Positions 11,851 through 59,348 of a DNA stretch of 64,000 nt are shown piece after piece. Source of the stretch: Gordionus sp. m RMFG-2023 (lineage: Eukaryota > Nematomorpha > Gordioida > Chordodea > Parachordodidae); assembly GCF_954871325.1 (NCBI RefSeq), contig NC_088777.1, forward strand, positions 62,001 through 126,000, given 5' to 3'. The first letter of the stretch is position 1; each line of letters opens with the position of its first letter. The notes beneath the pieces were generated by a model. The model was given only the letters and a program-made list of their open reading frames with translations, searched no databases and was not told where the DNA came from. A program made the translations under genes and the position numbers.

Positions 11851-13300
11851 AATCAAACCGGTAATAATTATTTCTTTTTAATTTTAATTGTGCTTATTGG
11901 ATGAATCTATGTATGGAGAAGAAATACAGAGAGTATATTAAAGAAAAAGATTATATTGTACTTAATGGATTAATCTATGTATGGAGAAGAAATACAAAGA
12001 GTATATTTAAGAAAAAGATTATAATGAGTGAAAAAAATTATTGATAATATATCTAAATTTAAAGGTGAAAGATTGGAAATGTGGAAAGGAACTATCATTA
12101 GCGATATTAAAAAATAAATTACTATCTTTAGAGATATTGTTGAATAAAATAAATTTAAAAAATTAATATTTGAAATGGATAAAATTAAAAGATAAATAGA
12201 AGAAGAAGAAAAATAAAGGGGTCGAAAAAATTAAAATAAAAAGTAATGAAATAGAAAAATTTTAAATGGAAGAAAGGGGAATTAAAAAAGTAATAATAAA
12301 TGAATTGGAAAAATTAAAATTGGAAATAGTAAGAAATGAAAAAGAAAAGGAAGAAATTAAAATAAAGGAAATTGAGGAAATAAGGAAGATGGGAAGATAT
12401 TGAATGTTAAAAAAGGGAAGTAGAGGAAATAGAAAATAAAAAGAAAGAAGAAATGGAGAAAGTTGAAGCAAAAAAATGGAGAAAAAAATTTTTAAATTGG
12501 AGGTAGAAAAAATGAGAATGAAAATAAAAGAAATGGAGAAGCAAATAAAAAAAAAGAAAAATGAATTTGAGTATAATTTTGAAATAATAAAGGGAAAATG
12601 TTTATCAAATAGAAGATGGCAATCGACAGGTAATAATGAGGTCAAATGGACCATGTTTTATTTGCGGAAAATATGGTCATATAAGCCGTGTAATGAAATT
12701 ATGCAGAGATCTCTGCCAATTGTTTGTGGAAGATGTTGAAATACGGGCCACAATAGGAAAATTGTTATGTTTCAGCTTTTAAAATAGAAGAAAATGTACA
12801 AAAAGTAAGGTCATGTTAAAATTGTGGAAGAACAGGACATACTTCGGATAAATGTTTCAGAAGAGAACAAATAGGTATCAATGCGTTTCCATCGGTTGTG
12901 TTTCCACTTGTTAAAAACGGTTTACCGGGAACTAATATTAAAAATGAATATAATAATGTAATATCAAAGATATGAAAAATGAAGGAAATAATGCTCAAAT
13001 AATAAGTTGTTTTTGATGTAGATATATTGGACTTTATGCGCGAGATTGTCCTATAGTATGACTGTATGATAGTGAAAAAAACATTTGTGGTTATTAAATC
13101 GGAAAACCCATTAAATCAAAAGAAAGAATTAATACAGAAATGCATTAAGTTTTAAAAATAAATTGGGATTCAGAATAAAGTAAGAGGTAAGTAATAATGA
13201 TTTGGTTATCAAAAATAAGAAAAATGAGCTGCCAAGTCAAACGTTTAAATTTGTAATACCAATTTTAGCAAAAAAGATAATATTAATTATGATGAATCTC
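11850..13300 (+). pseudogene. Ty3/gypsy Gag remnant with zinc knuckles
   Basis: Lys/Glu-rich coiled-coil-like sequence (about 12180-12600) is followed by several CCHC zinc-knuckle remnants in shifting frames. CFICGKYGH lies near 12655. CGRC, then a stop, then NTGHNRK lies near 12725. A third copy near 12820-12865 ends NCGRTGHTSDKC, and a degenerate one lies near 13015. Multiple stops and frameshifts show it is dead. It is the nucleocapsid portion upstream of the protease at 13306. The long minus-strand frame at 12262-12654 is a mirror of the Lys/Glu-rich region and is not a gene. Confidence 0.7.
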
Positions 13301-13305
13301 CGCGT

Positions 13306-13656
13306 GTGAAAATTAATGTGGTCAATAAAGAAACAATGTTATTGGATATAGGAGCTACTATATCGGTCATGGGATGTGAAGAATTTTATGAATTATGGCC
13401 TATTAAGCAAATAATAAATGATAAAATGATAGTAAAACAATTAAATGGAACTAAAATTGTAGCTTTGGGTAGGGTAAATTTACCGGTATTAATAAAAGAG
13501 ACAGTGTATGTTTTGGGTCTTTGGATACTAAAGCAAGAAATTGGTGCGATTATGGGGTGGGCTTGGATATCAAAATTTGGGCTAGATAATAATTTTTTGA
13601 ATATGTTTCAAGTAAAAAATAAAGTTAATGAAAATATGGAAATACCAAAAATGTGA
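13306..13656 (+). pseudogene. Ty3/gypsy aspartic protease domain
   Basis: A 116-codon frame with the retropepsin-type motif LDIGATISVMG, in which D-I-G-A corresponds to the catalytic D-[ST]-G/A. The distal conserved part GAIMGWAWISKFGL corresponds to the usual hydrophobic-Gly-Asp/Ala block. It lies in the Gag-to-Pol order expected for a gypsy element. The related protease at 23874-24140 has FDTAASISIMS and GWDWIIKLGL. A Lys/Glu-rich linker follows (13660-14350) instead of an intact reverse transcriptase. Confidence 0.75.
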
Positions 13657-14627
13657 GTAGAGAAGGTGGATATTAAAAACATAGAAAATAAATTGGTAAA
13701 AAATATGGTTTCAGAAAATATTGAAATTGAAAATTTGATAAATAGTAATCAAGAAATAAAAAAAATTCATAATTCGGAATTAGATATTGTTTTAAAAACT
13801 GATGGTGATTAAAAATTTTGAAATTAAAAATGAAATAATGAAAGAAGAAATCAAATTAGAATGTAATGAACGAAATGTAAGGAATGAAGAAATCGTTTGT
13901 GAATAAAGTTCAGATTATTGATAAAATTGAAATTTTACTAGATAATATAAGTTACGGAAAATGTATAAGCAATAAGTGAGGAAACTGATCAGGGTTTTTC
14001 TGAAATAGTAAATATTAAATGTGACGAAAATATGTTACATATTAATGAAATGGATAAAATTTGGGATTTGAAAATTGATAATATTTTGAAAACTAATGTT
14101 GAGGATTTTAAGTTTGAAATAGACTGTAAGATATTTGAAGAAGAATCTGAGTTAGAAAAGTTATATAAAATGTGGTAAAAAAATGTATAAAGAATCAAAT
14201 TTGGAGCAAAAAAAATTGCCTGTATCGCTAAAATTCCCGGCGAAATTTGTAAGGAAATAAGAAAAGGAGAAAGAAATATTTAAAGAAAAAATATCATGGA
14301 ATATGCAAAAATATATGGATGGAAATATAAACTTTGACGGAGACGTTATTAACAACGAAAAATTAAATTCTTAAGGCCAAAATAAAATTCGAAAGAATTT
14401 CGGTGTCATGTTTTTGATCGTTTTGATATCTAATGATTGTGGTAATTTTTATTTGGAAATTTAAAAAGAGATATATAGGAAGTTATGAATGTAATGAATT
14501 TTAAAGTAAAATGTCAAAGGATAAATTAATTAGAAATACGGGGGGGGGGTCAATGTTTAACTGTTAAAATGGGGGAAAGGTTATTAATGATGGAATGCTA
14601 CTTATAATTTATTTCTTTGTGAACATG

Positions 14628-14961
14628 TAAAGAAGGCAAAGAAGAAATTTGGATAGCTAATTTATATTATAATAATGGGGTAGGATGGTAAATCTCCTTC
14701 GGAAAAAATGTTGGGAAGGAAAACTAATACCTTTTTAGATATGTTAAAACCTGTTTCGAGAATGTTGGAAATTAAAAATAATGTGGAAAATGAATATATA
14801 GTTGATCAAATGGTCTGGGTTAGGATGTATGGAACTGGTAAAAAAAATGGAAAAAGGGGATAATTATAGAAAATTTAGGTAATAAATTGTGTAAAATAAG
14901 ATTGGAAGATATGACGGAAGGGCGTCGACATAGAGATCAGTTAAAATGTCGAGTTGAATAA
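14628..14961 (+). pseudogene. Ty3/gypsy integrase C-terminal end
   Basis: Frames (with shifts) read GKSPSEKMLGRKTNTFLDML, then DQMVWVRMYGTGKK, and end GRRHRDQLKCRVE with a stop at about 14961. This matches the typical C-terminus of gypsy integrases (GKSPxExxxGR, VWVR, xRHxDQLR). RT, RNase H and the integrase core are missing, so the element between about 11.9 and 15 kb is internally deleted. A run of 9 G lies just upstream near 14540. Confidence 0.75.
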
Positions 14962-20550: not shown

Positions 20551-21629
20551 ATTATATAAAATTATTTTGTATGATATAAAATTTTAGAAGGAAAATTATA
20601 AATAAATAACTGAAAATAACAATAATGTTTATTTGCATCAAATAATATATTTAGTTTTTTAAATCTTAATTAAACTGGCATATTTCCAATAAATGTTTAA
20701 AAAGTTGGTAGTAGTGTGGTTATTTAGTTAGTTTTACATGACCATGACTGGTTTTTAAATAATGAATCAACCTTGTTGATTAAATCCATAGACCTGAGCA
20801 CCAAACCAATTTATACTATTTTGATCAATTTTATGCATAGAAGATGAATATTACAATATAATCTATTATATTTTAAAAATTGCTCTCTTATAATTTGAAA
20901 ATTAAAAATTAGAGGACAAGTAATGTGATTCCATAATAATTAAATAATAATATCGAATCATAAATATAGAGTTAAACAACAAATAAATACATTTTGGCTC
21001 AAAATTAAAGTCTAACCAATTATTAGGACAACTAGAGCCAACTCCTGAACTGCCTTAGCCATTTTTTACAACTTTGGGGTAGATATATTATTAATTAAAT
21101 AAACATATTACCCTCATTTTTTGTTGATATGAATTATAAATATCTAAAAAACGATAAATTCCTAAAATAAATTTTTCCTGATATTATAAAATAATCCTTA
21201 TGAATACGATATCACTTATTTAATTAATATGGAATTGAATTACTCATCCTCTATTTTTAATTTTCAGATTATAAGAAGAGAACAAATTTTAAAATAGGAA
21301 TCTAATATTGAAATATTTGTCCTCTGAATAAAAATATGATTGAGTAATATATTAACAATAAAATACTATAATAAGGGTGGTTTGGAGTTGCTGCTTGGCT
21401 CTATGGATTTGGTCAACTCATTTGGTTGGGTTGGTTTATATTTTTGACCAAAACCCCAACCAAAAATGATCTTAATTTTACCCAACCAAGCAATTTAACC
21501 ATACTAAAAAGAAGGTATGCAACTAAGAAATATATTAAAATAGCTTTAGTGTGCTTGCTACTCTATGCCTGAAATCAAACACTATTTCAAATGGAAAAAT
21601 ATAGGTTATCAATATATTAATCTTGTCAC

Positions 21630-21976
21630 TGATATATATTTTAAAATAATAATATATTTGAATAATTTTTTAACAGTATTAATATAAATCAATCAATTGA
21701 TAGTTGATATTTAGAAAAATAATATATATATTGATTTTTTATTATCATTATTAGTAATATTTATTGAATTGCAGATTGATTTGAAATATAATTTTGAAAA
21801 AGATATAAGCATTGTAGTTTTTATGATTATAAAAAATATATATTTTGTTCGAGATTTGATACATATTTGATAAAAATATTTATTTTGAATTAAAATAAAG
21901 ATTAACCAAAAATCCAGAATAAATTGAAATTGATAAATATTGGTGTTTAATTGAGAATAAAAGTAGATACATTTTA
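21630..21976 (+). mobile_element. 5' LTR of gypsy element 2
   Basis: Matches 30904-31280 along its length (shared tcaattgatagttgatattt, ttgttcgagatttgatacat, ataaaagtagatacat). Begins TG. The 5-bp repeat gtcac lies just outside both LTRs (21625-21629 and 31281-31285). A TGG-starting candidate primer-binding site (tggtgcctaccaaccagga) begins at 21978. The LTRs are visibly diverged, so the insertion is old. Confidence 0.82.
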
Positions 21977-22249
21977 ATGGTGCCTACCAACCAGGATACG
22001 AACACTTATTAGGGAAAAATAAAAAAAATAGTGAATATTTTGTGAAGAGAATTTTAGATATTATAAAAGTAGAACAATTTCTAGGACCGGGTTCCTCAAA
22101 ATAATAGTAATTCCGGATATATATATAAAGGTAAGAAATTTTGTTTTTATTGAATTATAAATTAAACAACGCAATTTAAAAAGTTTTTTTTTCTATTTAA
22201 TTTTTTTAGGATTTTAAAAAATTTATTTTTGATATAAATTTATGAAATC

Positions 22250-22837
22250 ATGGTTTATCCTTTTATTACTGTGCATAGGAAGCCTGATTTTAATAAAATT
22301 TCGATTTATAAGAATAATTTTAATAAAATTTTTAATACAAAATTCAATGAATTGGATGTGACTAATAGTGCGGTTACAGCTTTCATTTTTTTTATATTGT
22401 ATATATTATTAATTGGTTTTAGACAATTAATTAATAGAATTAAGAGAAGATCAGTGACAAATAAAATAATTAAATTAGGTGATCTAAATAATAATAAATC
22501 TTTAGATATTTCTGAAGATATCAAAAATAATTTGCATTTAATTTTATTAGAATTAAAAAATTTAAATGGTAAAAAGATTGTTTTACCAGAAGAACAATCA
22601 GAGAAAATATTATATACGAGTGAAGTATTTAATTTTCCTCAAAATATTGACATATTGGAGGATATAAATAAAAAATTAAATTCAATTGTGATAGAATTTA
22701 AAAAGCAAATATCTGAGGTTTTAATCGAGAAATCAGTAATAATTTTGAAAAATAATAATACTTTGAGACAAAGTACTGAGGAATCTCTAATGTTAAGTGA
22801 AATTAGAAAAATTTGTACAGAGAAGTTTCCAACTTAA
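22250..22837 (+). CDS. Gag-position ORF of gypsy element 2, with a hydrophobic segment
   Basis: An intact 195-codon frame starts about 270 bp after the 5' LTR. Its position and the zinc knuckles that follow make it the Gag capsid-side ORF, although I see no diagnostic capsid motif. Residues about 42-60 (NSAVTAFIFFILYILLIGF) form a strongly hydrophobic stretch followed by a basic patch (RIKRR), which looks like a membrane anchor. The C-terminal half is Lys/Glu/Leu-rich and helical. It is separated by a stop from the knuckle region at 22855-23221. Confidence 0.6.
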   Translation: MVYPFITVHRKPDFNKISIYKNNFNKIFNTKFNELDVTNSAVTAFIFFILYILLIGFRQLINRIKRRSVTNKIIKLGDLNNNKSLDISEDIKNNLHLILLELKNLNGKKIVLPEEQSEKILYTSEVFNFPQNIDILEDINKKLNSIVIEFKKQISEVLIEKSVIILKNNNTLRQSTEESLMLSEIRKICTEKFPT

Positions 22838-22854
22838 AAATTAAAAATAATCAT

Positions 22855-23221
22855 GATTGAAAGTTCTGAACTTTGTGGAAGAATAGGACATGTCGGTAAA
22901 AATTGCTATTTAAGAGATTGAAAAATCAATGTGAATGTCACTGCAAAACCAAGTGAAAAAAATGACATAATGTGTCATAGATGTGGTTTTGTGGGACATC
23001 TAAAACGAAATTGCATGGTGAAAGAAGCTAATTTCAAAAGTGGATTTTCTCAACAAACATCGGTAGTGATAAATCCAGTGGTTCGAAATATACAAAATCC
23101 TAGTGTTATAAGTGTGGATAAAAAAGGAATATATAATACAGATAATGATCGAATGTGTTTCAGATGGGAGGAATTGGGACACATTGCAATACATTGTATT
23201 CAAAGTGTGAGTGGGCAGTGA
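22855..23221 (+). CDS. Nucleocapsid region, three CCHC knuckles (gypsy element 2)
   Basis: A partial knuckle (LCGRIGHVGKNC) ends at about 22910, followed by a stop. The frame 22931-23221 then holds CHRCGFVGHLKRNC, a perfect CX2CX4HX4C, and CFRWEELGHIAIHC, in which the second Cys is Trp. Such knuckles bind RNA in retroelement Gag. The protease follows after the MITE insertion. Confidence 0.75.
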
Positions 23222-23731
23222 CTATATGATTTGAAAGAGAATCATAAAAATAAATAAATTGTATTTATAGAGAATATTAAATTTTGTGATATATATATTT
23301 TTATTAAAAATTTTGTGGATATATATAGTAATATAGATAATCATTATGGGAATGATTTTTATACATTGAAATTTAACTCGAATAAAAAGAGTTGTAATGT
23401 AAGAAATTTTTATTGTCATTTTGATGAAATAAAAAATAACCAAGAATTTGAATAAAAAGGATTATTGTAACCAAACAAGTGAGAAATATCCATGGGAGAT
23501 TTTTAATAAAAACATAAATGAGATTCAGAGATTTTTAATAAAAACATAAATGAGATTCAGAGATTTTTAAATTCTGTGAAGAATTTAGGTATGAATATTA
23601 ATTATAGTGAAAATGAGATTAAAATAAATACTATTCAGCCGATTATAATGCATAAAAATTTAATAACTGGGGGAGTAAAGGAACAGAGTTCGTGTCCTCG
23701 TATTAATTTAAAAATTGGTGATGGTTGATAT

Positions 23732-23873
23732 CAGAGTTGTTAAAGGATCTAGATATAAAAATGTGGTATCTATATCTAGATAGATTTTTGAATAAAATAT
23801 CGGTATCTAGATATTATTTTAGACGATGTATCTGTATCTAGATCCATTTAAAAAGTATCTTTTAACAACTCTG
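23732..23873. mobile_element. hAT-type MITE, 142 bp, inserted in the protease gene
   Basis: Ends cagagttgttaaagg and cttttaacaactctg, flanked by a perfect 8-bp duplication gttgatat (23724-23731, 23874-23881). Near-identical to 53278-53433. It interrupts the reading frame just before the protease active site, so it is younger than the gypsy insertion. Confidence 0.92.
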
Positions 23874-24140
23874 GTTGATATGTTATTTGATACCGCGGCA
23901 AGTATTTCAATCATGTCTTGTGAAAATTTTTATAAATATTGGCATAAAGATAGTATTAAAAAAATAAATATATGTATAAAACAATTTGATGGATCTGAAA
24001 TCAAAGTTTTGGGTAGAACTCAGTAAGATGTTCTTTTCCGTGATATTCCTATAATTTTGGATTTATGGATAGTGGAAAAAAATGTTGAAACAATTATGGG
24101 TTGGGATTGGATTATCAAACTTGGACTTAGAAATAATTAA
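23874..24140 (+). pseudogene. Aspartic protease, gypsy element 2
   Basis: The frame resumes after the MITE with DMLFDTAASISIMSC. The active-site triplet reads D-T-A, where most retropepsins have D-T/S-G. The frame then gives QFDGSEIKVLGRTQ, a stop, and in sequence LDLWIVEKNV and MGWDWIIKLGL. It is similar to the protease at 13306-13656, showing that the two elements belong to related lineages. Confidence 0.7.
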
Positions 24141-24229
24141 TGGGATTTATTTATCATTAGCGAATTGGCTAGAGATAATGCCGAAAGAAAAATAATGATG
24201 AAGTCAGGGAAAAGCTTATATAAAGGGAA

Positions 24230-24565
24230 ATGAATAAATTAATGAGTGAAGTGAAAGAATCTATAGTTAATAAAAATATTTGTGAATATCCTGCAAAATT
24301 AATAATAGATTCAAATCAATCTAAGATCAATATTGAAGTTGATCATGATAAAAAAATTAATAATGAATTAAATAGAGTTGAAAATGCTATACCTATTTTA
24401 GTTGAAAAATATAATATAATTTTTGAAGACACTTTGGGATGTCTAAATGATTATCAAGTGGATTTTAAATTAAAAAAGGGATTTTCACATATTTTCTTAG
24501 CATGTCGTAGAGTTCCTTTTGAGTGGAAAAAGGAGATCAACGAAGAATTAGAAAACCTAAAATAA
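24230..24565 (+). pseudogene. Start of reverse transcriptase, gypsy element 2 (interrupted)
   Basis: The frame's distal half reads ILVEKYNIIFEDTLGCLNDY then VDFKLKKGFSHIF and CRRVPFEWKKEINEEL. This is the conserved region just upstream of the RT palm in gypsy Pol (Y-x-x-[IL]F...LGxL...V-x-F-x-L...a-R-x-V-P-F). The coding sequence is cut at about 24552 by the inverted-repeat element. The rest of RT, RNase H and most of integrase are not found on the other side. Confidence 0.75.
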
Positions 24566-27000
24566 ATTTAAAAAATAGAGGTTTAAATTTTTTTTTTCTT
24601 TTTTAAATTATAAACTTTATTCGGTAAAAAAAATTTGAGATTTAATTAATGAGTAGGTTTAGAATCGAAAAATAGTAGATGTAAGGAACATATTGCTGGC
24701 GTTATTGATCAAAATCTCTTCATTTTTGGTTTATACGTGTATATTTAGGTGTTAAACATTATCCTAAAAATTATTTTGAAAATAATTTGATTTGACCGAT
24801 TGCCGAGCTCAAAACCGACCACTTACTAAATATTTGATCTACCAATTTTGGTAGTAATATTATTTGGAAAATGTTCATTTTTAGTTAATTTATCTGTAAA
24901 TACGTGCAAATCATTATCCCTAAAAATATTTTAAAAATATCGTGATTTGACCGATAACCGATTTGAAACCGAAATACTGTCTTGCTGGCGTTATACATAG
25001 AAAATTCTTCATTTTTGGTTTATACGTGAACAATAACGTGTTAAGCATTATCCTAATTAATTTTTTGAAAATATTAAGATTTGACTGAATGACGGCTCAA
25101 AACCCACTTTAAATATTCGATTTATCAAATTTGTAGTAAAATTTGGAAAATGTTCATTTTTGGTTAATTTATCGAAATACGTGCAAATCATTATCCCAAA
25201 AATATTTAAAATATCGTATTTGACCGATAACCGATTTGCAACCGAAATACTGCTTTGCTGGCGTTATCCATAGAAAATTCTTTATCTTAATTAATATTTT
25301 ATTTTTTATCTATTATATAATATCATTAATCCAAAAAATAAAATATAATTTTATTAAATTAATGTCAATAAAAGACATTTGATACAATAATTATACCAAA
25401 AACAAAAGTGAAAAATAAATATAATTAAACGAGGAGCAGATATCCCTAGTATTTTCATCTATATATTCATCACTTCCTCATATATTTAAAAAAATATTTA
25501 ACAAAATGGAAATTATGAATAATCAATTAAATATAATATTATATTTATATGCGATGTAAAAAAAAATATTTTAAAAAAATTTGGTATTTGTGACGATATG
25601 AATGAATAAAAGTTACAAAAAATTAATATTTAAAAAATTTGGTATTTGTGACGATATGAATAAAAATTAAAAAAAAAATTAATATTTGCATGCGATGTGA
25701 ATAAATTTTTTTTTAAAACTATGATTAGGATGAAGCATTGTTCCGATACAAAAATCTATTGTAAAATTAAAAAATTGATTTGATATATATGTACGACGTT
25801 TAGGGCCTTAATATTTTTCAATTTTAATTTTTTTATTGATACTGTTCTATTTTTTTTTATTTTAATTTTTTGACATGGTTTTTTAGAATTTTTACGCTTT
25901 AAAAGTATTAATTCCCCGCATGATGACATGACATTTTCTCTTTCCCGTTTTTGACTTCCTTTTATTAAAATTTCTACCTCTTTTTTTTTATCTTCCTCAC
26001 TAAATTTCTCTCAAATTGATAAATCTATCTAAAATGACTTATACCCCTCAGCCAAATAATATTCTCCTTTTCCTATCAAAGCTCTTTCGTGATCTTTTTC
26101 TTGTATTTATACTTTATTATATATTATATCAATTAAATTACTTGATTGCCAATTTTTATAACTTTTAAATACATGATTCATGGACTCGCAATTGTTGTTA
26201 GTCCATAAATCACTTATAATTATATTTTCAAAAAATTAATTAGGATAATGCTTAACACGTTATTGTTCACGTATAAACCAAAAATGAAGAATTTTCTATG
26301 TATAACGTAGCAAGACAGTATTTCGGTTTTAAATCGGTTATCGGTCAAATCACGATATTTTTAAAATATTTTTTGGGATAATGATTTGCACGTATTTATA
26401 GATAAATGAACCAAAAATGAACATTTTCCAAATAATATTACTACCAAATTTGGTAGATCAAATATTTAGTAAGTGGTCGGTTTTGAGCTCGCCATTCGGT
26501 CAAATCATAATATTTTCAAAAAATTAATTAGGATATTGCTTAACACGTTATTGTTCACGTATAAACCAAAAATGAAGAATTTTCCATGTATAACGCTAGC
26601 AAGGCAGTATTTAGTCATTGGGCCGGTTTCAAATCGGTTTTCTGTCAAATCACGATATTTTTAAAATATTTTTTGGGATAATGATTTGCACGTATTTATA
26701 GATAAATAAACCAAAAATGATTATTTTCCAAATAATATTAACACCAAATTTGGTCGATCGAATATTTAGTAAGTGATCGGTTTTGAGCTCGCCATTCGGT
26801 CAAATCATAATATATTCAAAATATTTTTTAGGATAATGTTTAACACCTAAATATACACGTATAAACCAAAAAGGAAGAGATTTTGATCAATAACGCCAGC
26901 AATATGTTCCTTACAAATTTTCTACTATTTTTCGATTTTAAGCCTACTCATTAATTAAATCTCAAAGAAACCTCTATTTTTTAAATTTATTTTAGGTTTT
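24552..27000. mobile_element. MULE-type element with long, internally repeated inverted ends
   Basis: The left arm (24552-25290) and right arm (about 26240-27000) are inverted copies: ctaaaataaatttaaaaaat at the left edge mirrors the right edge. Each arm holds two to three ~290-bp tandem units marked by gctggcgttat (24695, 24983, 25258; mirrored near 26300, 26590, 26891). The ~950-bp middle carries a MULE transposase remnant. It inserted inside the RT gene of gypsy element 2. The exact target duplication could not be fixed because the edges are palindromic. Confidence 0.75.
26037..26216 (-). pseudogene. MULE transposase C-terminal remnant
   Basis: Reads WTNNNCESMNHVFKSYKNW and, after one stop, IQEKDHERALIGKGEYYLA. 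The MULE at 46747-47671 has NNNCESINHVLKTKFDW and IQEKDFERAICGLGPYYL at the same places, so the two share an origin. The CES glutamate corresponds to the third catalytic residue. Confidence 0.72.
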
Positions 27001-27308
27001 TCACATGTTTCCAAATATAAAAAAAAGCGCTATCCAATATTTATTCTGGTTTCCTAAGAATATATTTTCATATTTATGTATTTTACGCCCTCTTATGGAT
27101 ATAAATTTGTTAAATTTTGTAATTGAAAAATAAAATTTAAGTTGTAATAAGATAGTAAATATATTTTTTTTCCTATAATATCAAGTAAAAATAGAATTTT
27201 AAATTATTTGATATTTAATATCATTTTTTTTAATTAATTAAAAATTGATTTATGTAAAATAAAAAAGGAAGACTTTTTGACCATAGGGAGAAAGGTTGTG
27301 TTATATAA

Positions 27309-27395
27309 AATATTGGTAGTAAATTATGTAACATACGATTTGATAATGGTACTCTGGTAGTACGTCATAATAAATTTTTGAGGATATATAATTAA
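27309..27395 (+). pseudogene. Integrase C-terminal tail, gypsy element 2
   Basis: Twenty-eight codons reading NIGSKLCNIRFDNGT, VVRHNKFLRIYN and a stop at 27393-27395. Position and pattern match the integrase tail of gypsy elements (compare RRHRDQLKCRVE at 14961). It proves that Pol of element 2 ends here, 3.5 kb before the 3' LTR. Confidence 0.6.
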
Positions 27396-27618
27396 GAAGT
27401 GAATTACATGAGGCTGTGTCCTAAATCAAAAAAAAAATTTAAATTTTTGCGAATCTCAAAAATTATGGGAGATTTGGGAGATACGAAACATGTCCCGATT
27501 CATACATTTATTTTCAATTTTAAAATGTTTGATATGAATTTGTTGATACGACTGAGCCTAGAAGAAGACATAGATTTTTAGAAGGCCGGTATATATGATA
27601 TTATTTATATTATATGTA

Positions 27619-28110
27619 TTAAATCTAGAGATCAAGGATTTTTTAAAATATTTGATAGTATTCCATCTTATCCTGACAAATTTCGTCAGATGTTCCACAT
27701 GCATGTGGAAACATTCAACTACATTCTTATAAATTTGGAGTCTATAGACACCGCTATAGTTAAACATAAAAACTATTAGTATGAAGCAACGTCTCTATAT
27801 AACACTCATGTATGATGATTTTATTTTTTTATAATCTGTATATATTTATAGATATTTGACAACTGGTATGAGCTTTAGAAAATAGCATTATATGCAAAGA
27901 CAAATATTACAAACACTATGCAAATAGTTAAGGCTGACTGCCTTTTGCATAATATTATTATTGATCTTGAGGGAAATGATTGTACACCAGTACATGAAGA
28001 ATATCCAATTTCAAATTTTACCCAATCTCAGTTCCAGTGATGGAATGAGAGCTCTAATAATATCAGAGAAACATTTAACTTATATGTAAATAATTATATG
28101 TAAAATTTTT
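27619..28110 (+). pseudogene. Harbinger transposase, internally deleted
   Basis: The N-terminal part reads FFKIFDSIPSYPDKFRQMF and MHVETFNYILINL, as in HARBI1-type proteins (FR-x-YF/MF-R-M-S-x-x-x-F). Next come RYLTTGMSFR (LRFLATGxSF) and then directly the C-terminal block KADCLLHNIIIDLEGN (CxxLHN), ending RETFNLYVNN. The catalytic DDE core between these is missing, so the copy is dead. Confidence 0.75.
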
Positions 28111-28429
28111 GTATACATTTATTTTTTAATTCTCATAACCTTATATCTCTTATGAATGTTTTCATTTGTCAAAGTTATATAATTTATTTATAAATATTCA
28201 ATAAAAAGTGCAAATAAAAGTGTTGTTTTGATTACATTATATAAGTAAGTTATTTCTAATTAATTTAATGAGTAAGACAAATGACTAAATTTCAATAATT
28301 TTTATTATAAATAAATGTACAAAATATGTTTAACATATTATGGTATTAAAAATTAAGATATAAAAATGTATAAATTAATTAAAAAAATACAGTATAAACT
28401 AAACCAACATTGTTGTTATAAATTTTAAT

Positions 28430-29200
28430 TTAAAATCAAAAATTTCTTTATCAGTCATAATATTAAATTGAGCTTGATATGATTTGAAAAAACCCATAAT
28501 ATTATGGGGATCATCTCCTTGGGATGTATGTTTGGCAGCAAAACCTATTTTAAAAATTAATAATTATTAAATATATAAATGTACCCCTAAATATCTCCAT
28601 TTTTTCATCTTCATACTTCTTAGATTTTTTAGCTTTAGATTTAGGAGTATCTAAATTCTTCCTCTAGCTACATGGATTAATATTTTCTTTATTAAAAGAA
28701 TTGTCTAACTATAATTAAATTAATAATATATACATAAAATTAATTTAACCTCTAAAATTTCTTTCTCATATATATCAGTAGGATTAACAATATCAGTTAA
28801 AAGATCATGTGTATTTAACTCGTAATCCTAATATATAGTTCATTATATACATTTCATGTTATAATACCTGTATGATGTTTGTACATTCACCACATCTTGG
28901 ATATTTTGTTCATAATCCTAAAATATTGTTATTATATAATTATAATTTCATGTTATAATACCTGTGATGATGATTGTACATTCACCACATCTTGGATATT
29001 TTGTTCATAATCCTAAAATATTGTTAATATATAATTATAATTTCATGTTATAATACATGTGAAGATATTTGATCCAAACTAAAACTTGCCTCTGCATTAT
29101 TACAAATATCTTCAACATTTTCTTTTAGCCAATAATAATCCTCAATAAATTTGAGTTGCTTGCTATTCAAAATATTAGCACCTGAACCTAAAATATAAAA
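28430..29200 (-). pseudogene. Harbinger accessory protein with BESS-like motif, spliced
   Basis: Read on the minus strand: an exon with NILNSKQLKFIEDYYWL and NAEASFSLDQISS; tandem copies of a 17-residue exon; an exon DYELNTHDLLTDIVNPTD; a basic exon (TPKSKAKKSKKYEDEK); and a last exon with GDDPHNIMGFFKSYQAQFN and MTDKEIFDFKLKFI. The last matches the BESS motif (D-D-x-x-F-x-x-S-[LY]...). Such MADF/Myb-like partners bind transposon ends or import the transposase. The MADF part itself was not identified. Confidence 0.6.
28851..29062 (-). repeat. Tandem 95-bp exon-plus-intron repeat
   Basis: A 51-bp exon (28962-29012; DYEQNIQDVVNVQSSSQ) and a 50-bp copy (28868-28917, one base lost) are each followed, on the minus strand, by the same intron starting gtattataacatg and ending ttttag or attag. 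The unit is thus an exon and its intron duplicated together. Confidence 0.8.
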
Positions 29201-29499
29201 TAATATTTATATGTATTTATAATTATACCTGATTTTCATAAATATCTATATCTTCTAATATTTTCCATTAATAAATATTCAGTCGCCATTTAATCTCTCA
29301 AATTGTAAAAGTTTAAGGAAAAAATGATTAAAGTTTTACGAATCGTATAACTTTTAAGAATCATGTGATTTGTGCAAAATCGAAAAAATCATTTAGGCCA
29401 TCATTTTAATTTTCCATTAAAAATGGCTTATATTATTTTTTTCGTTAAATTGCGCAAATTAATTTTTATGCAATTTTTGATATTTAGGACAGAGCCTGA

Positions 29500-30320
29500 A
29501 ATAAACATAAAATATTTTATAAACAAAATGATAGTGTATTATTGTAATAGTTCAAAAAACCGGAATTTTTGGTTCCATTTTTTTTAAGACGTAACTCATT
29601 TTGTACTTTGATAATTTTTGTAATATCATGTTATAGTGATATAGAGAATGATTATCAATTATTTGATTTTATGAGGGAATATTTTTTTTAAAATGTTATT
29701 TTAAAAGGAAAGAAGATAAAATTAAATGTTTTGTGTGTTTTTGTTTTAGAGAAAGAAAAATAAAATCGAAATATTGTAAAAACACAAGTGATAAATATAT
29801 ATATTTAATACACTTTTAGGGAAAGAAAAGTGAAAATTAAAATATGTCAAAAACACAAGTGTATTTTAGTGGAAAGTTTTTTTTTCTTTAAATAAATTGC
29901 ATATATTTAATGCGATTTTAGGGAAAGAAAAGTGAAGAACAAAATAATTTTTAAAATAAAAACATGAGTGGTGTTTTCATGGAAAGTTTCTTTCTTTATA
30001 TAATTTGCATAAGGGAAATATGTAAATAATGTATGTTTTAGAAAATGGAGAAATTATTTTTGTATATAAATTACTTAAGGGTCATATGTAAATAATTATG
30101 TGGTAAAAAGAGAAAAATTAGTTAAGAGTGATAATTAATAATTGTAAAAAAATTTTTAAATTATTAATTATATTGTTATTTTCGATAATTTTAAAATTTA
30201 AATAAAAATTTTTTTAAAAAATTTGTGTATTAGTTTAAAAAAAAATATATAATAAGATGAGTTATAAAATCGAAACAAGTGAACAAATTATCTATGTGAA
30301 GATAGTTAAAAAAAATGAAG
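29500..30320. other. Gypsy element 2, 3' non-coding part with ~100-bp tandem repeats
   Basis: About three degenerate units between 29740 and 30060 share gggaaagaaaagtgaa, aaaacacaagtg and tggaaagttt. No ORF. It separates integrase (plus the Harbinger insertion) from the downstream knuckle ORF. Confidence 0.5.
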
Positions 30321-30321
30321 A

Positions 30322-30819
30322 ATGGGAATTAAAAAACCTAAATTTGAGGAATTCCAGCGATGTTTCAGGTGTCAATCCTACGGACACCTCATAAAAAACT
30401 GCAATATTCCAATTCACGTTCTACAAAATCAAGAGAGAGATGAACATCTTAGTGAAATAAATGAGACTCCAGGAACAAGTTATTTTTGTGGGAAAAATAA
30501 TATGATAAAGCCGGGGGTTGCTTATCATAACTATAACAATATCAATGAGATAGAATCACGACATAAACAGTATGGAAATAGGCAGTGGCCGCCTACTAAA
30601 TATGATGGGACGTTAAAAAGAACCAATGGAATTCAAGATAGGACATTAGGAGTAATAATTACATCGATGGGAAACAAATTCAAATATTACGGAAAAATGC
30701 AAGCTACAAACGAGAATTCGACAAAGTTGGGGTCAACTATAGTTAAAGTGACAAACAGTACTGATTTTCAAAAGAAATATAATTCTATGGAAACTGAAGA
30801 GGAAGAGATGTTAGGATAA
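30322..30819 (+). CDS. Extra 3' ORF of gypsy element 2: CCHC zinc-knuckle protein
   Basis: An intact 165-codon ORF ends 85 bp before the 3' LTR. Residues about 14-27 are CFRCQSYGHLIKNC, a perfect CX2CX4HX4C knuckle. A second region FCGKNN lacks the remaining ligands. The rest is polar and basic, ending in an acidic tail (METEEEEMLG). It is downstream of the integrase tail (27395) and upstream of the LTR, a position usually empty or occupied by env. The ORF is less AT-rich than its flanks and free of stops while Pol is decayed. An alternative is a second, inserted Gag fragment, but the second element at 55.3-59.5 kb has the same layout. Confidence 0.7.
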   Translation: MGIKKPKFEEFQRCFRCQSYGHLIKNCNIPIHVLQNQERDEHLSEINETPGTSYFCGKNNMIKPGVAYHNYNNINEIESRHKQYGNRQWPPTKYDGTLKRTNGIQDRTLGVIITSMGNKFKYYGKMQATNENSTKLGSTIVKVTNSTDFQKKYNSMETEEEEMLG

Positions 30820-30903
30820 AGAAGAAGACTTATAAATGTAAAAAAAATTGTTTCCGCGTTTTTTTTTGAGTTTTTCATGTCTTTGTTTTTTTTAGGGCGG
30901 ACA

Positions 30904-31280
30904 TGATATATATTTTTAAATAATAATATAATTAAATAGTATTTTTAACATTATTAATATATGTCAATCAATTGATAGTTGATATTTAGAAAAATAATAT
31001 ATATATATTGATTGTTTATTATCATTATGAGTAATTTTTATTAAATCGCGGATTGATTAAAAAAATATATAATTTGGAAAAAGATAAAAAAAAGATTGAG
31101 CATTGTTTTTTTTTATTATATAAATAATATATATTTTGTTCGAGATTTGATACATATTTGATGAAAATATTTATTTTGAATTGAAATAAAGATTAATCAA
31201 AAATCGAGAATAAATTGAAATTGAGAAATATTTAAATACAGAAATACTGTTTAATTAAGAATAAAAGTAGATACATATTA
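30904..31280 (+). mobile_element. 3' LTR of gypsy element 2
   Basis: Aligns with 21630-21976. It is preceded by agggcggaca, a short purine-rich tract, and followed by the gtcac target copy (31281-31285). Confidence 0.82.
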
Positions 31281-31511
31281 GTCACATATCATAATTTTTA
31301 AACCAAGGATATTTGATATCGAGCCAATGAGAAACAAAATTTTTTAGTATATTACAAGAAATTTTGTTCATCAAAAGTCCATTTTAACAAACCGTCCTAC
31401 CTTTATTAAATTAGAGATAACCAATAGTGCTGTACATTTTTGTAATAATATATTTAAAAAATTAGGGATCAAAAAACATATCAGGAAAAATCTTAAAATA
31501 TTTAAACTGGT

Positions 31512-31759: not shown

Positions 31760-33515
31760 TGAAAATTACAATTTTATATTTATCAGCCTTTAGACAGACT
31801 TGGTTGAACCTAGAAATTAATTTTTTTGAAAATAGGGCTAAGGCTTTTAATTTTTTTAACTCAAAATTATTATTTTTTTCCTCTTTAGCTTTCACCTTTT
31901 TTGGTGGTAAGCTACCATCTCTCTCCACTTTATGTTATATCATACAATATTTTTTATCTAATTTATACTTCTTTATATTGGCTCTAACTTTATGGCCCCA
32001 TTGAAGTTTTGGCCTTCCTCTTTTACATTTGTCCATCACTTCCAAACTCTCAACTTTATTTCCTATGTAGTTCATAGGCCTTCTCATTGTGTGCCCATAA
32101 CACTTAAGTCTTTTTACCATTAACTTAGTCTTAATGGGCACTACCTTTAAACTACTTAGTATTCTTGTAATGCGCACTTAATCCTTTCTTGTTATCCCAG
32201 CAATGTAGACATCTCTCGTCTGATTCTTTGGTTAGCCATGTTTCCGAACTATATAGAATAGTTGACTATGGAACTGTAAATTTTTCCCTTTAATTTGTGT
32301 GGGATTCTTTTGTCAAATAGCACTCCAGATAAAGATCTCCATTTTAACCACCCTTGATTAATCTTACTCTTTATCTCTTTTTCTATTGTGCCGTTTGTTT
32401 GTATAGTGGAGCCCAAATATTTGCAGCTTTCAATTGCGGATATCTGCCATTCATTTATATCAATACTCTCTGTTTCATCTCCTCCTATCACCATATACTC
32501 CGTCTTTTCTCTATTTACTTTTAATCCGTGCGTTTCTAGGATATTTATCCAACTCACTAACCTTTCTTTCATTTCATCTTTGGATTCGGCAAGTATCACA
32601 ATATCATCTGCAAATATCATATTCCACGGGACTGTTTGAGGTATAGACTGTCCTAATACATCTATTACTGTAATGAAGAGAAGTGGGCTGAGAGCCGACC
32701 CTTGATGAACTCCTTCGGCTATTGTGAAGCCTGCTGAAGTACCTGTTGTGCTACGGATCATTGTTGTATGTCCCATTACATATCCTGTATTATTCTTATA
32801 TATTTTTCGGGAATTTTTTTGTGGCGTAGCGCCCACCAGATAAGTTTTCTTGGGATTCTATCGAAGGCCTTTTCTAGATCGAGAAAGACCATGTGTAGCT
32901 TTTTGTTCTTTTCCCTGTATTTTTCACTCATTTGCCTAATTGCATGGATAGCATCGGTTGTTGATCTTCCAGGCATAAAGCCAAACTGTGTCTCTCCTAT
33001 TTCGATTATACCTCTTAATCTTTTTTCTATTATTTTTTCGTATAGTTTCAGACAGTGTGACATTAGTTTTATGCCTCTGTAATTTTGACAATTGTGTGGA
33101 TCCCCTTTATTTTTGAAGATAGGAACTAGATAGCTCTGCCTCCATTCTTGGGGAACCTCTTCATTTCTAAGTATTTTATTGTACAGATTTGTGAGGAGAT
33201 GTATTCCATCATCTCCTAGTGCTTTAAGGCTTTCTATTGAAATATCGTCTGGACCACTAGCTTTGTTGTTTTTCATATGCTTGAGACATGTGATTATTTC
33301 TTGTTCATAGGTTGTACAAGGTTTTGACATGGGGAGTGTTCGTCTAGATGTAGTATGTGGAGTTTAAAGTTGAGAAGCTCCTGAAAATATTCTTTCCATC
33401 TATTCATTTTTCTTTTTCCTTTATTATCAATTTCCCATCTTTATTTTTGATTACTTTCGGAGCTCCGTTTATATCCCTATAGTTCTTTTCTCGCTGTTTG
33501 GCTAACTCAATATAT
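31760..33515 (-). pseudogene. RTE-like LINE reverse transcriptase, 5'-truncated
   Basis: On the minus strand: NRWKEYFQELLN; then 33330-32776 with KASGPDDISIESLKALG, IFKNKGDPHNCQNYRGIKL, QFGFMPGRSTTDAI and VFLDLEKAFDRIPR; a frameshift near 32780-32830; then 32836-32249 with VHQGSALSPLLF, the catalytic FADDIVILAES box and CKYLGSTI. After another shift comes YSSETWLTKE, and a C-terminal block ends with RLKCYGHTMRRPMN and KCKRGRPKLQWG. This is the order of RTE-clade/craniofacial-protein-2-like LINE RTs. It lacks the endonuclease and is frameshifted. A second copy of its tail is at 53887-54183. Confidence 0.85.
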
Positions 33516-37300: not shown

Positions 37301-37980
37301 AGTAATAGGCTACACCCTTTTGAATCTTACAAACTTGAAAAAAAAAATTGGTAAAATATGGCCCTTAATATCAAATTGGCGTTTATTGTCAGGTTCATAC
37401 AAGAAAAAAAATGATAGGTTAATTACATAAATTTTTATTATTTTAATAATTTTACGGATCTCAAAATATGCTTTGTGTTTGTTTTCCATTATAATTTATA
37501 ATTACGAAAAAAATTTGAAAAAGAGACGAGTGTCCGGCTATGGATGAATATAATGGAAACACGTCTAGCCAATTTTCAAATAAATAAAAATTAGGGTCTT
37601 AACTTATTTTTTGTCCAATATTAGTATTTAAAATTTTTTCAAAAATGATTTAATCTAATTATTAAAAAAATCATAAATAACAAGTGACATGTTTTAGGGT
37701 ACAAAAATTTAAAAACGCTACGTTAAATAAATATAGAAACGTGAATTAAGCTGGTTTTATCGTTTTTTGAAAAAGGTCTCAACTTGCTAAATGTGTTACA
37801 ATATAATTAGTGAGTTTAAAGAATTTCTTTAGAAAATATTATCAGCTAACAAATTTATTGTTCCCAATATATTCAAAATATAAAAACATCATAAAGATGA
37901 ACTATTTATTAAGAAGTAAGTGGATAAGTAGTGAAGAATTTTAATATTTTATTTTAATTATATCGATCATTTGTCAAATA
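34345..37980. other. Long non-genic AT-rich stretch
   Basis: Contains a 53-bp direct repeat (ataattatataataataatttt... at about 34690-34785), A/G microsatellite (35288-35320), CCGGGC-rich repeat debris (35260-35410), G-rich tract (36193-36230) and a small hairpin (36676-36697, caagcccc/ggggcttg). No convincing exon; the frame at 35980-36243 ends in a G-run and is probably spurious. Confidence 0.35.
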
Positions 37981-37989
37981 TAAATCAAT

Positions 37990-38310
37990 ATTGCATACGC
38001 GATAATTAATTCATGATATTACATTCGCGATAATGAATTCGCTGTAATGCATTCGAGATATTGCATTCGCGATAATATATTCGATGTAATGCATTAGCGA
38101 TAATAATTTCGCGGTATTGCATTCGCCCTAATGCATTCGCGTTAATACATTCGCTATAATGCATTCTCGAAAATGCATTCGCGATAATGTCTTCGCTCTA
38201 ATACATTCGCTATGATGCATTCGCGATATTGCATTAGCGCTTATACATTCGCTATAATGCATTCGCGAAAATGCATTTCGTGGAAAAAGTTTCGCGGTAT
38301 TGACGTATCA
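37990..38310. repeat. Array of ~15-bp units (GCATTCGCGATAAT type)
   Basis: About 20 variable units of attcgcgataatgc, ending with tttcgcggtattgacgt. Opposite orientation to 31512-31735. Confidence 0.88.
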
Positions 38311-57184: not shown

Positions 57185-57508
57185 CTAATCTCTACTGCTC
57201 CCTTGTCCTACCATAGGTTCTTCCTCCTGTACCGCTAACATGTTGTTGTTTGTGCTAATCGTGGGACATCTCCGTAAAATATGATCCCCTCCACAAAACC
57301 AGCAAGACATTCTTCTTCGAGATCCCCACTCCCGTTCTCTTCTACGATTGTACGACCTGTCTGTGGGTCTATCTACCGTCATCTCTCCATACCTGATCTG
57401 GGCCTCATCTCTGGCGGAATCTATCCATCTTATCGATTCGGCTGATCCACCAACCATCCTAATCTCGATCTTCAAAATAAAGTTTCCCACTCGCACGTAC
57501 GACGACAT
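57185..57508 (-). CDS. Extra 3' ORF of gypsy element 3: zinc-knuckle protein
   Basis: A 107-codon frame, basic in the middle (RSYNRRREREWGSRRR), with CWFCGGDHILRRC, a CX2CX3HX4C variant knuckle, and an acidic/polar tail (AVQEEEPMVGQGSSRD). It lies about 430 bp downstream of the integrase tail and upstream of the LTR-side region, the same position as the ORF at 30322-30819 in element 2. The two share only the knuckle and an acidic tail, so they are analogues or distant homologues. An alternative is Gag of a tandem neighbour, but no LTR is visible between integrase and this ORF. Confidence 0.65.
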   Translation of the reverse strand: MSSYVRVGNFILKIEIRMVGGSAESIRWIDSARDEAQIRYGEMTVDRPTDRSYNRRREREWGSRRRMSCWFCGGDHILRRCPTISTNNNMLAVQEEEPMVGQGSSRD

Positions 57509-57699
57509 CTATCACGGACTTAAGCTAAAAATATACTATATTTATCATTTATTCATCTCCATTAATTCAACTGCTTCCTAATTCTCAATACTCATAATCA
57601 TTCTCGTATTACCTAAGCCTCTCTCATTCTTTTTTATCAAATTGTTCATACTTTCAGCCGCTCTATTCTACTAGTGTACTTCGTCAACATTCTGATTAT

Positions 57700-57905
57700 C
57701 ATCATTCTCGCAGACTTGTTAAAAGGAACAATTCAATTATGCCTATCAGCATTCTCCACATTCTGATTCTCATAATTCTCGCAGACTTGTTAAAAAAACA
57801 AATCAATTATGTCTATCAGCATTCTCAACATTCTGATTCTCATAACTCTCGCAGACTTGTTAAAGAACAAATCAATTATGTCTATCAGCATTCTCAACAT
57901 CTCAG
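57700..57905. repeat. Three ~60-bp tandem units, left arm
   Basis: Units of tatcagcattctcaacattc plus tgattctcataattctcgca and gacttgttaaa. Mirrored at 58650-58860 in the right arm. The translated frames across them are artefacts. Confidence 0.88.
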
Positions 57906-57945
57906 CAATTTAATCGATTCACAACGCCATTTATTACTAACCTAG

Positions 57946-58505
57946 ACACCTAGGTCTTAATTGCTTAATATGCCTCGAAACTACTCCTATTCTTCCTTCA
58001 ATTTATACTTCTACCTTCTTTCTTCCTATATTCTTTCACTATACCTTTCCCCCATTTAACTGGGCCATCAAAAAGTATTCTCCAAACTAGGCTTCCGATC
58101 TTAAATCTGTCATTAATTATAACTTCTTTCTGTTCTATTCTTTCTTTCAGAAAATCTAATTCTGTTCTAGTTTTTCTACCTAAAAATATCTCTGCTGGTG
58201 AGTAACCTTTGCTTCTCTTGGTATTGTTGTACGTTAATAGTAATAACCACCATTTTCCTTCTCCATATTTTTCCTTTTTTAACCATCTCTTAACTAGAGC
58301 TACCATTCTCTCCGCTTGTCCATAACTTCTCGGGTAATGTGGTGGTGCTAATAAATGCTCAATCTTCCATCTATCACAAAATTTGTCAAAATCTCTGCCT
58401 ATAAATGCTGGACCACCATCTGATACTAAGGTCTTCATTAACCCATATTTACTTACGAAGTCTTTTACCCTATTCAATGCAACTTTCGTCGTCAGACTCG
58501 ATACA
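57946..58505 (-). pseudogene. Integrase (catalytic D/E part and tail) of gypsy element 3
   Basis: Reads VALNRVKDFVSKYGLMKTLV, SDGGPAFIGRDFDKFCDRW, APPHYPRSYGQAERMVALVK, YNNTKRSKGYSPAEIFLGRK and FKIGSLVWRILFDGPVKWGK. The Asp of SDGG and Glu of QAERM are the second and third catalytic residues; the first Asp lies upstream of the palindrome junction and is lost. After a frame change the tail reads VVSRHIKQLRPRCLG with a stop near 57946. N-terminal residues of the longer frame beyond about 58505 come from the inverted arm. Confidence 0.85.
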
Positions 58506-59039
58506 TAGTGAAGAAGAATATAGGAAGAAAGAAGGCAGAAGTAGAAATTGAAGAAAGAATAGGAGTAGTTTCGAGGCATATTAAGCAATTAAGACCTAGG
58601 TGTCTAGGTTAGTAATAAATGGCGTTGTGAATCGATTAAATTGCTGAGATGTTGAGAATGCTGATAGACATAATTGATTTGTTCTTTAACAAGTCTGCGA
58701 GAGTTATGAGAATCAGAATGTTGAGAATGCTGATAGACATAATTGATTTGTTTTTTTAACAAGTCTGCGAGAATTATGAGAATCAGAATGTGGAGAATGC
58801 TGATAGGCATAATTGAATTGTTCCTTTTAACAAGTCTGCGAGAATGATGATAATCAGAATGTGACGAAGTACACTAGTAGAATAGAGCAGCTGAAAGTAT
58901 GAACAATTTGATAAAAAAGAATGAGAGAGGCTTAGGTAATACGAGAATGATTATGAGTATTGAGAATTAGGAAGCAGTTGAATTATAGGAGATGAATAAA
59001 TGATAAATATAGTATATTTTTAGCTTAAGTCCGTGATAG

Positions 59040-59348
59040 ATGTCGTCGTACGTGCGAGTGGGAAACTTTATTTTGAAGATCGAGATTAGGATGGTTGATG
59101 GATCAGCCGAATCGAGAAGATGGATAGGAGCCGCCAGAGAGGAGGCCCAGATCAGGTATGGAGAGATGACGGTAGATAGACCCACAGGCAGGTCGTACAA
59201 TCGTAGAAGAGAACGGGAGTGGGGATCTCGAAGAAGAATGTCTTGCTGGTTTTGTGGAGGGGATCATATTTTACGGAGATGTCCCACGAGCACAAACAAC
59301 AACATGTTATTCATTCGATTTTCATTTTGGATTTGTATTTGGAAATAA
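59040..59348 (+). pseudogene. Inverted, truncated copy of the zinc-knuckle ORF
   Basis: Matches the minus-strand ORF at 57185-57508 through CWFCGGDHILRRCPT, then diverges at the deletion junction into LTR-side sequence (FIRFSFWICIWK). Confidence 0.88.

Follow-up and report, generated by a model that had tools for sequence, protein, structure and literature searches.

A zinc-knuckle third gene behind the integrase of Ty3/gypsy elements in the hairworm Gordionus: a likely RNA-binding accessory protein

Introduction

Extra genes at the 3′ side of long terminal repeat (LTR) retrotransposons are known and, besides those of the envelope (env) type and CERV, their functions are mostly open in the literature, as far as the accessible portions of the articles cited here by PMC number go. 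CERV, encoded by the C. elegans Ty3/gypsy element Cer1, is needed for export of the genomic RNA; it is a protein of 517 residues that has N-terminal exons in common with Gag, is predicted to contain three structured domains and may have a C4 finger (PMC10309623). In the LTR retrotransposons of bdelloid rotifers, the third open reading frames (ORF3s) are as a rule transcribed separately and expressed through spliced mRNAs (PMC5408684). The present work concerns a gene in a comparable place, hereafter ORF3, in a Ty3/gypsy element of the hairworm Gordionus sp. m RMFG-2023 (Nematomorpha; genome of 287 Mb). The element lies at 21630–31280 of the window, i.e. of the whole stretch of 64,000 nucleotides that was analysed (positions 62,001–126,000 of contig NC_088777.1), and ORF3, which encodes a zinc knuckle of the CCHC type, is located between the remnant of the integrase and the 3′ LTR.

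A preliminary description of this DNA held that Ty3/gypsy elements normally have nothing or env at this place. This view is too narrow, since other extra ORFs are found there in Cer1, bdelloid rotifers and plants (PMC10309623, PMC5408684, PMC7264820). In the open-access literature, most subscription journals lying outside it, the accessible text contained no report of LTR retrotransposons from Nematomorpha or of a zinc-knuckle third ORF in gypsy elements. Below we describe the position of ORF3, its conservation in multiple copies, the purifying selection acting on it, its exchange between elements and its absence from some sister elements. We favour, with a probability of roughly 0.55 and by analogy with CERV, the reading that a group of Ty3/gypsy elements possesses a genuine third gene, ORF3, whose product would be a trans-acting RNA-binding accessory factor, CERV-like export of genomic RNA being the most likely step.

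Results

The main frame of ORF3 in the window (30322–30819, forward strand) comprises a CCHC knuckle at 30361, a conserved middle motif and a short acidic end. The stop-free frame spans 166 codons at 30319–30819, 165 of them from the ATG at 30322, and its stop is separated from the 3′ LTR at 30904 by 84 bp, which confirms the 165-codon CCHC ORF of the preliminary description. The knuckle is recognized by Pfam zf-CCHC with an E-value of 0.0023 and 18.4 bits, under the curated cutoff of 20.8. At 22.6% GC, the probability that a given start on this strand opens a stop-free frame of 165 codons is 5.8e-9; a simulation of 20 windows of 64 kb, read in six frames, gave one stop-free run of the length of ORF3. 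Proof that ORF3 is a gene comes, beyond this open frame, from the other copies. They also qualify the earlier claim that the ORF is intact while Pol is ruined: Pol is indeed broken, but ORF3 itself is damaged. The methionine at 30322 corresponds to an internal site in sister copies, and the family start, MSYK... or MNYK..., is found at 30258, out of frame with the main ORF3, so that the 5′ end of the gene (MSYKIETSEQIIYVKIVKK, 30258–30315, forward strand) is in another frame than the remainder, as judged by comparison with sister copies. In L009, the closest relative of the window ORF3 (96% identical), the protein begins upstream with MSYKIETSEQIIYVKIVKK or similar, and the window frame ends about seven residues short of the L009 end.

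A search of the Gordionus genome returned 123 ORF3 matches, 24 of which were uninterrupted from residue 3 or earlier to residue 162 or later. Twenty copies, which are not a random sample because they were chosen from the top of this list, were fetched as 10-kb stretches. Gag or pol matches were present upstream on the same strand in 18 of the 20 (L009 and L012 were without a gag-pol match), and the integrase in 13, at a distance of 0.7–1.2 kb in 12 of these and of 2.9 kb in L020. An LTR-like direct repeat started within about 110 bp after ORF3 in 13 of the 20 copies, although in pieces in L018. The same arrangement was observed when the integrase served as the starting point, the sample being the best 150 of 4694 candidates, 31 of which were covered by pairing with the window-type ORF3 probe. 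All 23 integrase matches of at least 82% identity were followed by ORF3 on the same strand within 9 kb, and 21 of the 23 within 4 kb; the two remaining ORF3s, at 5.1 and 8.8 kb, are perhaps from another insertion. With this probe, ORF3 was found downstream of two of four integrases at 75–81% identity and of none of four at 68–69%.

Four further ORF3 probes, L036, L037, L040 and L042, gave at least 150, 48, 69 and at least 150 matches, respectively; removal by hand of short or repeated pieces reduced the 540 matches of the five lists to 329 entries, a few places still being represented twice. Paired with these entries, 88 of the best 150 integrase matches had an ORF3 on the same strand within 4 kb downstream and none had one upstream, the opposite strand giving seven downstream and seven upstream. 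The frequency by integrase identity was 21/23 (82–100%), 2/4 (75–81%), 9/28 (65–74%), 49/82 (60–64%) and 7/13 (50–59%). The figure of 88 in 150 should not be taken as a complete census or as a rate of loss, because the best 150 of 4694 candidates were scored and five probes miss some ORF3s. The occurrence of a CCHC gene in the integrase–3′ LTR interval, in addition to the knuckles of Gag, is thus supported well beyond the window. Some elements have identical ORF3 proteins, which suggests recent activity. A short rearranged copy in L009 (7025–9455, oriented) has a 205-codon open ORF3 frame and LTR pieces 99.4% alike over 170 bp, suggesting from this likeness that it moved recently. An apparently ORF3-derived satellite, with 12 copies of the knuckle region at a spacing of about 110 bp, was seen at G000:C4:3366871-3368248.

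Selection was assessed, as the preliminary description had proposed, from the ratio of nonsynonymous to synonymous substitution rates (dN/dS), with codons aligned to the relative L025 and pairs, which are not independent, restricted to dS of 0.1–1.5. The median for ORF3, 0.289 (194 pairs), was practically that of the integrase, 0.288 (71 pairs), while medians of 0.339 (97 pairs), 0.529 (90 pairs) and 0.631 (94 pairs) were obtained for the nucleocapsid, gag and protease–reverse transcriptase (RT), respectively; decay after insertion inflates the ratio where genes are broken. Within ORF3, the median dN/dS was 0.14 for the N-terminus plus knuckle (87 pairs), 0.38 for the middle (191) and 0.33 for the acidic end (118). 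Six hand-picked ORF3 pairs gave 0.25, 0.36, 0.26, 0.48, 0.27 and 1.23, the last of these at a dS of 0.013. The low ratios indicate purifying selection and therefore that the protein is kept; we regard it as near certain that ORF3 is a real, selected gene in the window-type family and its near relatives.

The genealogy of ORF3 is apparently not that of pol. One might suppose that ORF3 simply evolves fast, but this explanation is disfavoured: its dS, too, was higher than that of the integrase in 53 of 55 pairs, and this is better accounted for by a distinct genealogy, due in part at least to recombination. The copies L022, L013 and L023 illustrate the point. In blocks of 150 bases, the identity of L022 to L013 is 94–98% from the middle of the integrase into the gap, apart from 88% in the first block, and falls to 52–79% over ORF3, whereas its identity to L023 is 76–96% before the break and 91–96% over ORF3. 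Recombination, most simply in L022, has therefore affected at least one of these copies, with a breakpoint between integrase and ORF3, in the stretch that matches window positions 29600–30257. The identity of the intergenic block is about the value expected from the pol-side genealogy. From these comparisons, ORF3 seems to be swapped or lost among elements as a cassette.

The ORF3 product of about 195 residues is small and basic. A conserved N-terminal strand motif is followed by a basic stretch, a single CCHC knuckle and a middle part that varies; in the window-type family the end is acidic. Pfam zf-CCHC was detected in 15 of 19 members at an E-value of 0.1, the knuckle being CX2CX4HX4C. In the protein P0003, the isoelectric point is 9.8 for residues 1–55 and 4.3 for the last 29 residues. 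This composition makes an RNA-binding accessory protein likely. Among solved structures, no match rose above chance (best E 0.037). The window ORF, the alignment of 19 rows and a two-row alignment of diverged members, used as queries in protein searches, gave three, three and six matches, all from Gordionus, which is weak as evidence of absence elsewhere since transposon genes are often not predicted; the database search suggested in the preliminary description has thus led back to this genus.

As to expression, an in-frame start M[SNY]YK occurs in 14 of the 19 rows. The 5′ leader contains a donor-like GTAAG in 11 of 13 aligned copies, which in the window forms part of the candidate splice donor AAAG/GTAAG (22127–22135, forward strand), and TTTTAG or TTTCAG sites are present in 13 of the 17 integrase–ORF3 gaps scanned, with none in the other four. 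Judging from these motifs, it is plausible that ORF3 is made from a spliced mRNA. The database gene model P0004, which joins pieces of RT, integrase and ORF3, may be either a hint of splicing or a prediction error. Gag forms a single frame of 352–353 codons in three of the 20 fetched copies; it has an N-terminal hydrophobic helix (hydropathy 2.0–2.4 in three relatives) and three knuckles, and no capsid match was obtained in a Pfam scan. Among 27 sequences examined, 13 of the 16 alignable Gag–Pol junctions read TGA CTA, as does that of the window (candidate read-through site, 23219–23224, forward strand). This is a leaky stop context, so that Gag–Pol would likely be produced by stop read-through instead of frameshifting.

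The window element is bounded by the target site duplication GTCAC, with the same letters at 21625–21629 and 31281–31285, and by a 5′ LTR at 21630–21976 (right end within 2–3 bases) and a 3′ LTR of 377 bp at 30904–31280, which begins TGATATAT; both LTRs are on the forward strand and have the same base at 313 of the 347 sites aligned (90.2%). The matching duplication and the likeness of the LTRs uphold the earlier claim of a single element, and mark it as an old copy. The LTRs with target duplication are as expected of a Ty3/gypsy LTR retrotransposon; the domain order RVP, RVT_1, RT_RNaseH, H2C2 and rve was read from the relative L025, in which RVP scores 20.3 bits against a cutoff of 20.7, and the window copy retains pieces of it. 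The element still shows Gag, nucleocapsid, protease and the beginning of RT in recognizable but broken form, and has lost the greater part of RT, RNase H and integrase. On the forward strand, the N-terminal part of Gag with one hydrophobic helix lies at 22250–22837 (tblastn, 60% to L025 Gag at 22238–22813), and is followed by the nucleocapsid at 22853–23218, its frame broken (78.5% over 22853–23215; the three CCHC knuckles of relatives were counted by eye). Comparison with relatives places the protease and the start of RT at 23222–24565, with broken frames and a short insertion near 23731–23872. A nested inverted-repeat transposon (24550–27002; arms 71–100%, ends approximate and set by eye) lies where the greater part of the RT–RNase H–integrase region would be expected, and the C-terminal tail of the integrase persists at 27267–27395 (tblastn, 57.8% to L025 integrase residues 508–552 at 27267–27392).

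A second nested transposon, read from the sequence at 27412–29496, has short inverted ends, GGCT.TGTCCTAAAT, and is flanked by TGA on either side. It fills the greater part of the 2.9 kb that separate integrase and ORF3, and this insertion accounts for the long distance in the window. When its flanks were joined in a search for the empty site, no alignment across the junction was obtained for any of 20 loci. An AT-rich stretch with repeated GGAAAGAAAAGT blocks, common to relatives, precedes ORF3 at 29600–30257 on the forward strand.

Three-prime ends with ORF3 recur as inverted pairs, namely at 57236–59309 of the window and in L009, L011 (7415–8560), L022 (5212–9084, oriented), L036 (775–3001) and L037 (8–3001). 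Seven opposite-strand ORF3 pairs within 5 kb were present among 83 entries. The arms are between 94.9% (L022) and 99.9% (L036) alike, and the divergence of the former makes assembly error unlikely for the older pairs. Such pairs could yield hairpin RNA. Hairworm mitochondrial genes contain long palindromes too, according to the accessible part of PMC6649704. Elsewhere in the window, another knuckle-bearing frame (57304, reverse strand) stands behind an integrase piece of 47% identity. Another gypsy element, at 13249–14949, has protease–RT and integrase pieces 34–35% identical to L025, and no CCHC frame was found behind its integrase. Two open frames at 32249–33363 on the reverse strand resemble, by eye, a non-LTR reverse transcriptase, and a tandem array of a 14-bp unit occupies 37947–38305.

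Discussion

The reading that we prefer, that of a trans-acting accessory factor, may be set out as follows. ORF3 would be translated from its own, probably spliced, mRNA, starting at its own ATG, and the protein would act in trans on the full-length RNA of the element. The most likely step would be nuclear export or protection of the unspliced genomic RNA, as for CERV and Cer1; by this analogy, RNA export is our best single guess, packaging or a chaperone role coming next. Elements devoid of ORF3 would either borrow the protein from ORF3-bearing relatives or take another route.

Several observations weigh against this reading. Thirteen further 3′ ends were read behind integrases 55–76% identical, nine first and then four chosen because the census had found no ORF3 there, and a CCHC frame was present in five of the 13. 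Among the first nine, L036, L037, L039, L040 and L042 have such a frame, of 139–197 codons, in a similar place, and none was found in L035, L038 and L043, each over 3 kb, nor in L041, where another insertion is present; the four further ends likewise lack one. A profile match (probability 90, E 1.7e-6) that covers the strand motif and the knuckle joins the window type to the L036/L042 type, and the likeness of L037, L039 and L040 to the window ORF3 is confined, in the alignment, to place and knuckle. There are also close sisters in which other sequence, devoid of a CCHC frame, stands in the place of ORF3. L044 is 93.6% identical to L042 over 932 aligned positions after the integrase, yet lacks the frame, as does L045, which is 97% like L044; L046 matches L036 at 94–98% in the pol tail and 94% in the presumed LTR, yet has no ORF3, and L047 is like L046. 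The integrase in front of L046 has a frame open over 1139 codons. ORF3-less elements are successful. The absence of ORF3 from these sisters means that it is optional and not needed in cis; to the question of the preliminary description whether ORF3 is always present, the answer is that it is frequent but missing from some near-identical sisters. Moreover, no acceptor-like site is common to all 17 gaps, and a structure model from nine sequences has a mean predicted local distance difference test score of 48, with strands at residues 2–6 and 11–15 and low confidence elsewhere; a single-sequence model of Gag was equally poor (45.6).

An RNA export element substituting for ORF3 in the ORF3-less sisters was also considered and rejected: in the corresponding segments of L044–L047 no window of 180 bases had an RNA-structure z below −1.6 (40 shuffles each). 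ORF3-bearing segments gave z of −4.2 and −2.6 in L042 and −2.8 in L036 (40 shuffles, uncorrected for the number of windows). The predicted structures exceeding shuffles, at L042 917–1096 (z −4.2) and L036 1107–1286 (z −2.8), oriented, are situated shortly 5′ of ORF3.

Alternatively, ORF3 may act within the particle alongside Gag, as a further nucleocapsid or an RNA chaperone, in packaging, dimerization or reverse transcription. We regard this as appreciably less probable than the trans-acting factor, though it is the strongest of the competing explanations. The basic N-terminal part would suit such a protein, and the nucleocapsid of the same elements has the same CX2CX4HX4C knuckle; indeed, when ORF3 and Gag profiles were compared with hhalign, the knuckle was aligned to the third one of Gag. 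The probability of that match was, however, 8, and no likeness was found past the knuckle, so that duplication of Gag was rejected as the source of ORF3. Gag already possesses three knuckles, as counted by eye, against one in ORF3, which moreover stands apart in place and has its own ATG.

A role in counter-defence, in which ORF3 would bind small or double-stranded RNA and blunt host silencing, appears unlikely. In some plant viruses, silencing is indeed suppressed by small basic zinc proteins, the gene is optional and swappable, and the palindromic copies of ORF3 ends could be a source of hairpin RNA; the dN/dS of 0.14–0.38 across the parts of ORF3, however, bears no sign of positive selection. 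Much less probable still is a Gag fragment or foreign insertion that is carried passively. The preliminary description had itself raised a separate Gag fragment as one outcome that would refute its claim, and the knuckle type common with Gag might point that way, but this is contradicted by the restriction of the Gag match to the knuckle, by the constant place in many LTR-bounded copies and by purifying selection. A degenerate envelope gene, for which the env position alone could be invoked, is hardly credible in a knuckle protein of about 195 residues without a hydrophobic segment among 19 members searched (over 19 residues, hydropathy did not exceed 0.72 in 18 of them and reached 1.31, upstream of the presumed start, in L031, against 2.0–2.4 for three Gag helices).

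It is tempting to speculate that hairworm gypsy elements share a pool of exchangeable third-gene cassettes, in which a fast-diverging zinc-knuckle factor would serve the RNAs of elements in trans and versions of almost the same element with and without ORF3 would coexist. We advance this broader proposal tentatively, the odds being against it. If true, it would imply that a Rev/CERV-like function has arisen separately in a phylum whose LTR retroelements are hardly described. Sisters with and without ORF3 that have nearly the same pol tail provide a natural comparison for the role of the third gene and for its action in trans.

Comparison with CERV points in both directions. According to the available text (PMC10309623), CERV resembles ORF3 in its place, a cysteine finger, a basic stretch, the lack of relatives found beyond the host group and a divergence greater than that of Pol. 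The differences count, like the points gathered above, against the preferred reading: ORF3 has about 195 residues instead of 517 and was not seen to have three structured domains, its finger is a CCHC and not the candidate C4, and it begins at its own ATG. Because size, finger type and start differ, we do not file ORF3 as a CERV; export of RNA has been shown for CERV and is extended to ORF3 by analogy. The bdelloid ORF3s, in the portions of PMC5408684 at hand, likewise follow pol as additional genes; they are family-specific, occur in more than one type of element and are absent from early-branching lineages. They belong to env-like, GDSL, DEDDy, CC and TM types, in contrast to the zinc knuckle of the hairworm gene; the words 'zinc' and 'CCHC' do not occur in that text, and its 'knuckle' passages refer to Gag and to an extra knuckle in Juno Pol. 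The additional 3′ ORFs of the plant elements Grande, RIRE2, Retand and Athila (PMC7264820, PMC11728184) are likewise of unknown function as far as these texts were available; the sense ones are env-like and others are antisense, and 'zinc', 'CCHC' and 'knuckle' are absent from the accessible text of PMC7264820. Taken together, the bdelloid ORF3s and the extra ORFs of plants (PMC5408684, PMC7264820, PMC11728184, PMC9289625) make optional third genes a known kind, to which the hairworm adds a zinc-knuckle third gene, present in many elements of a phylum that has been little sampled.

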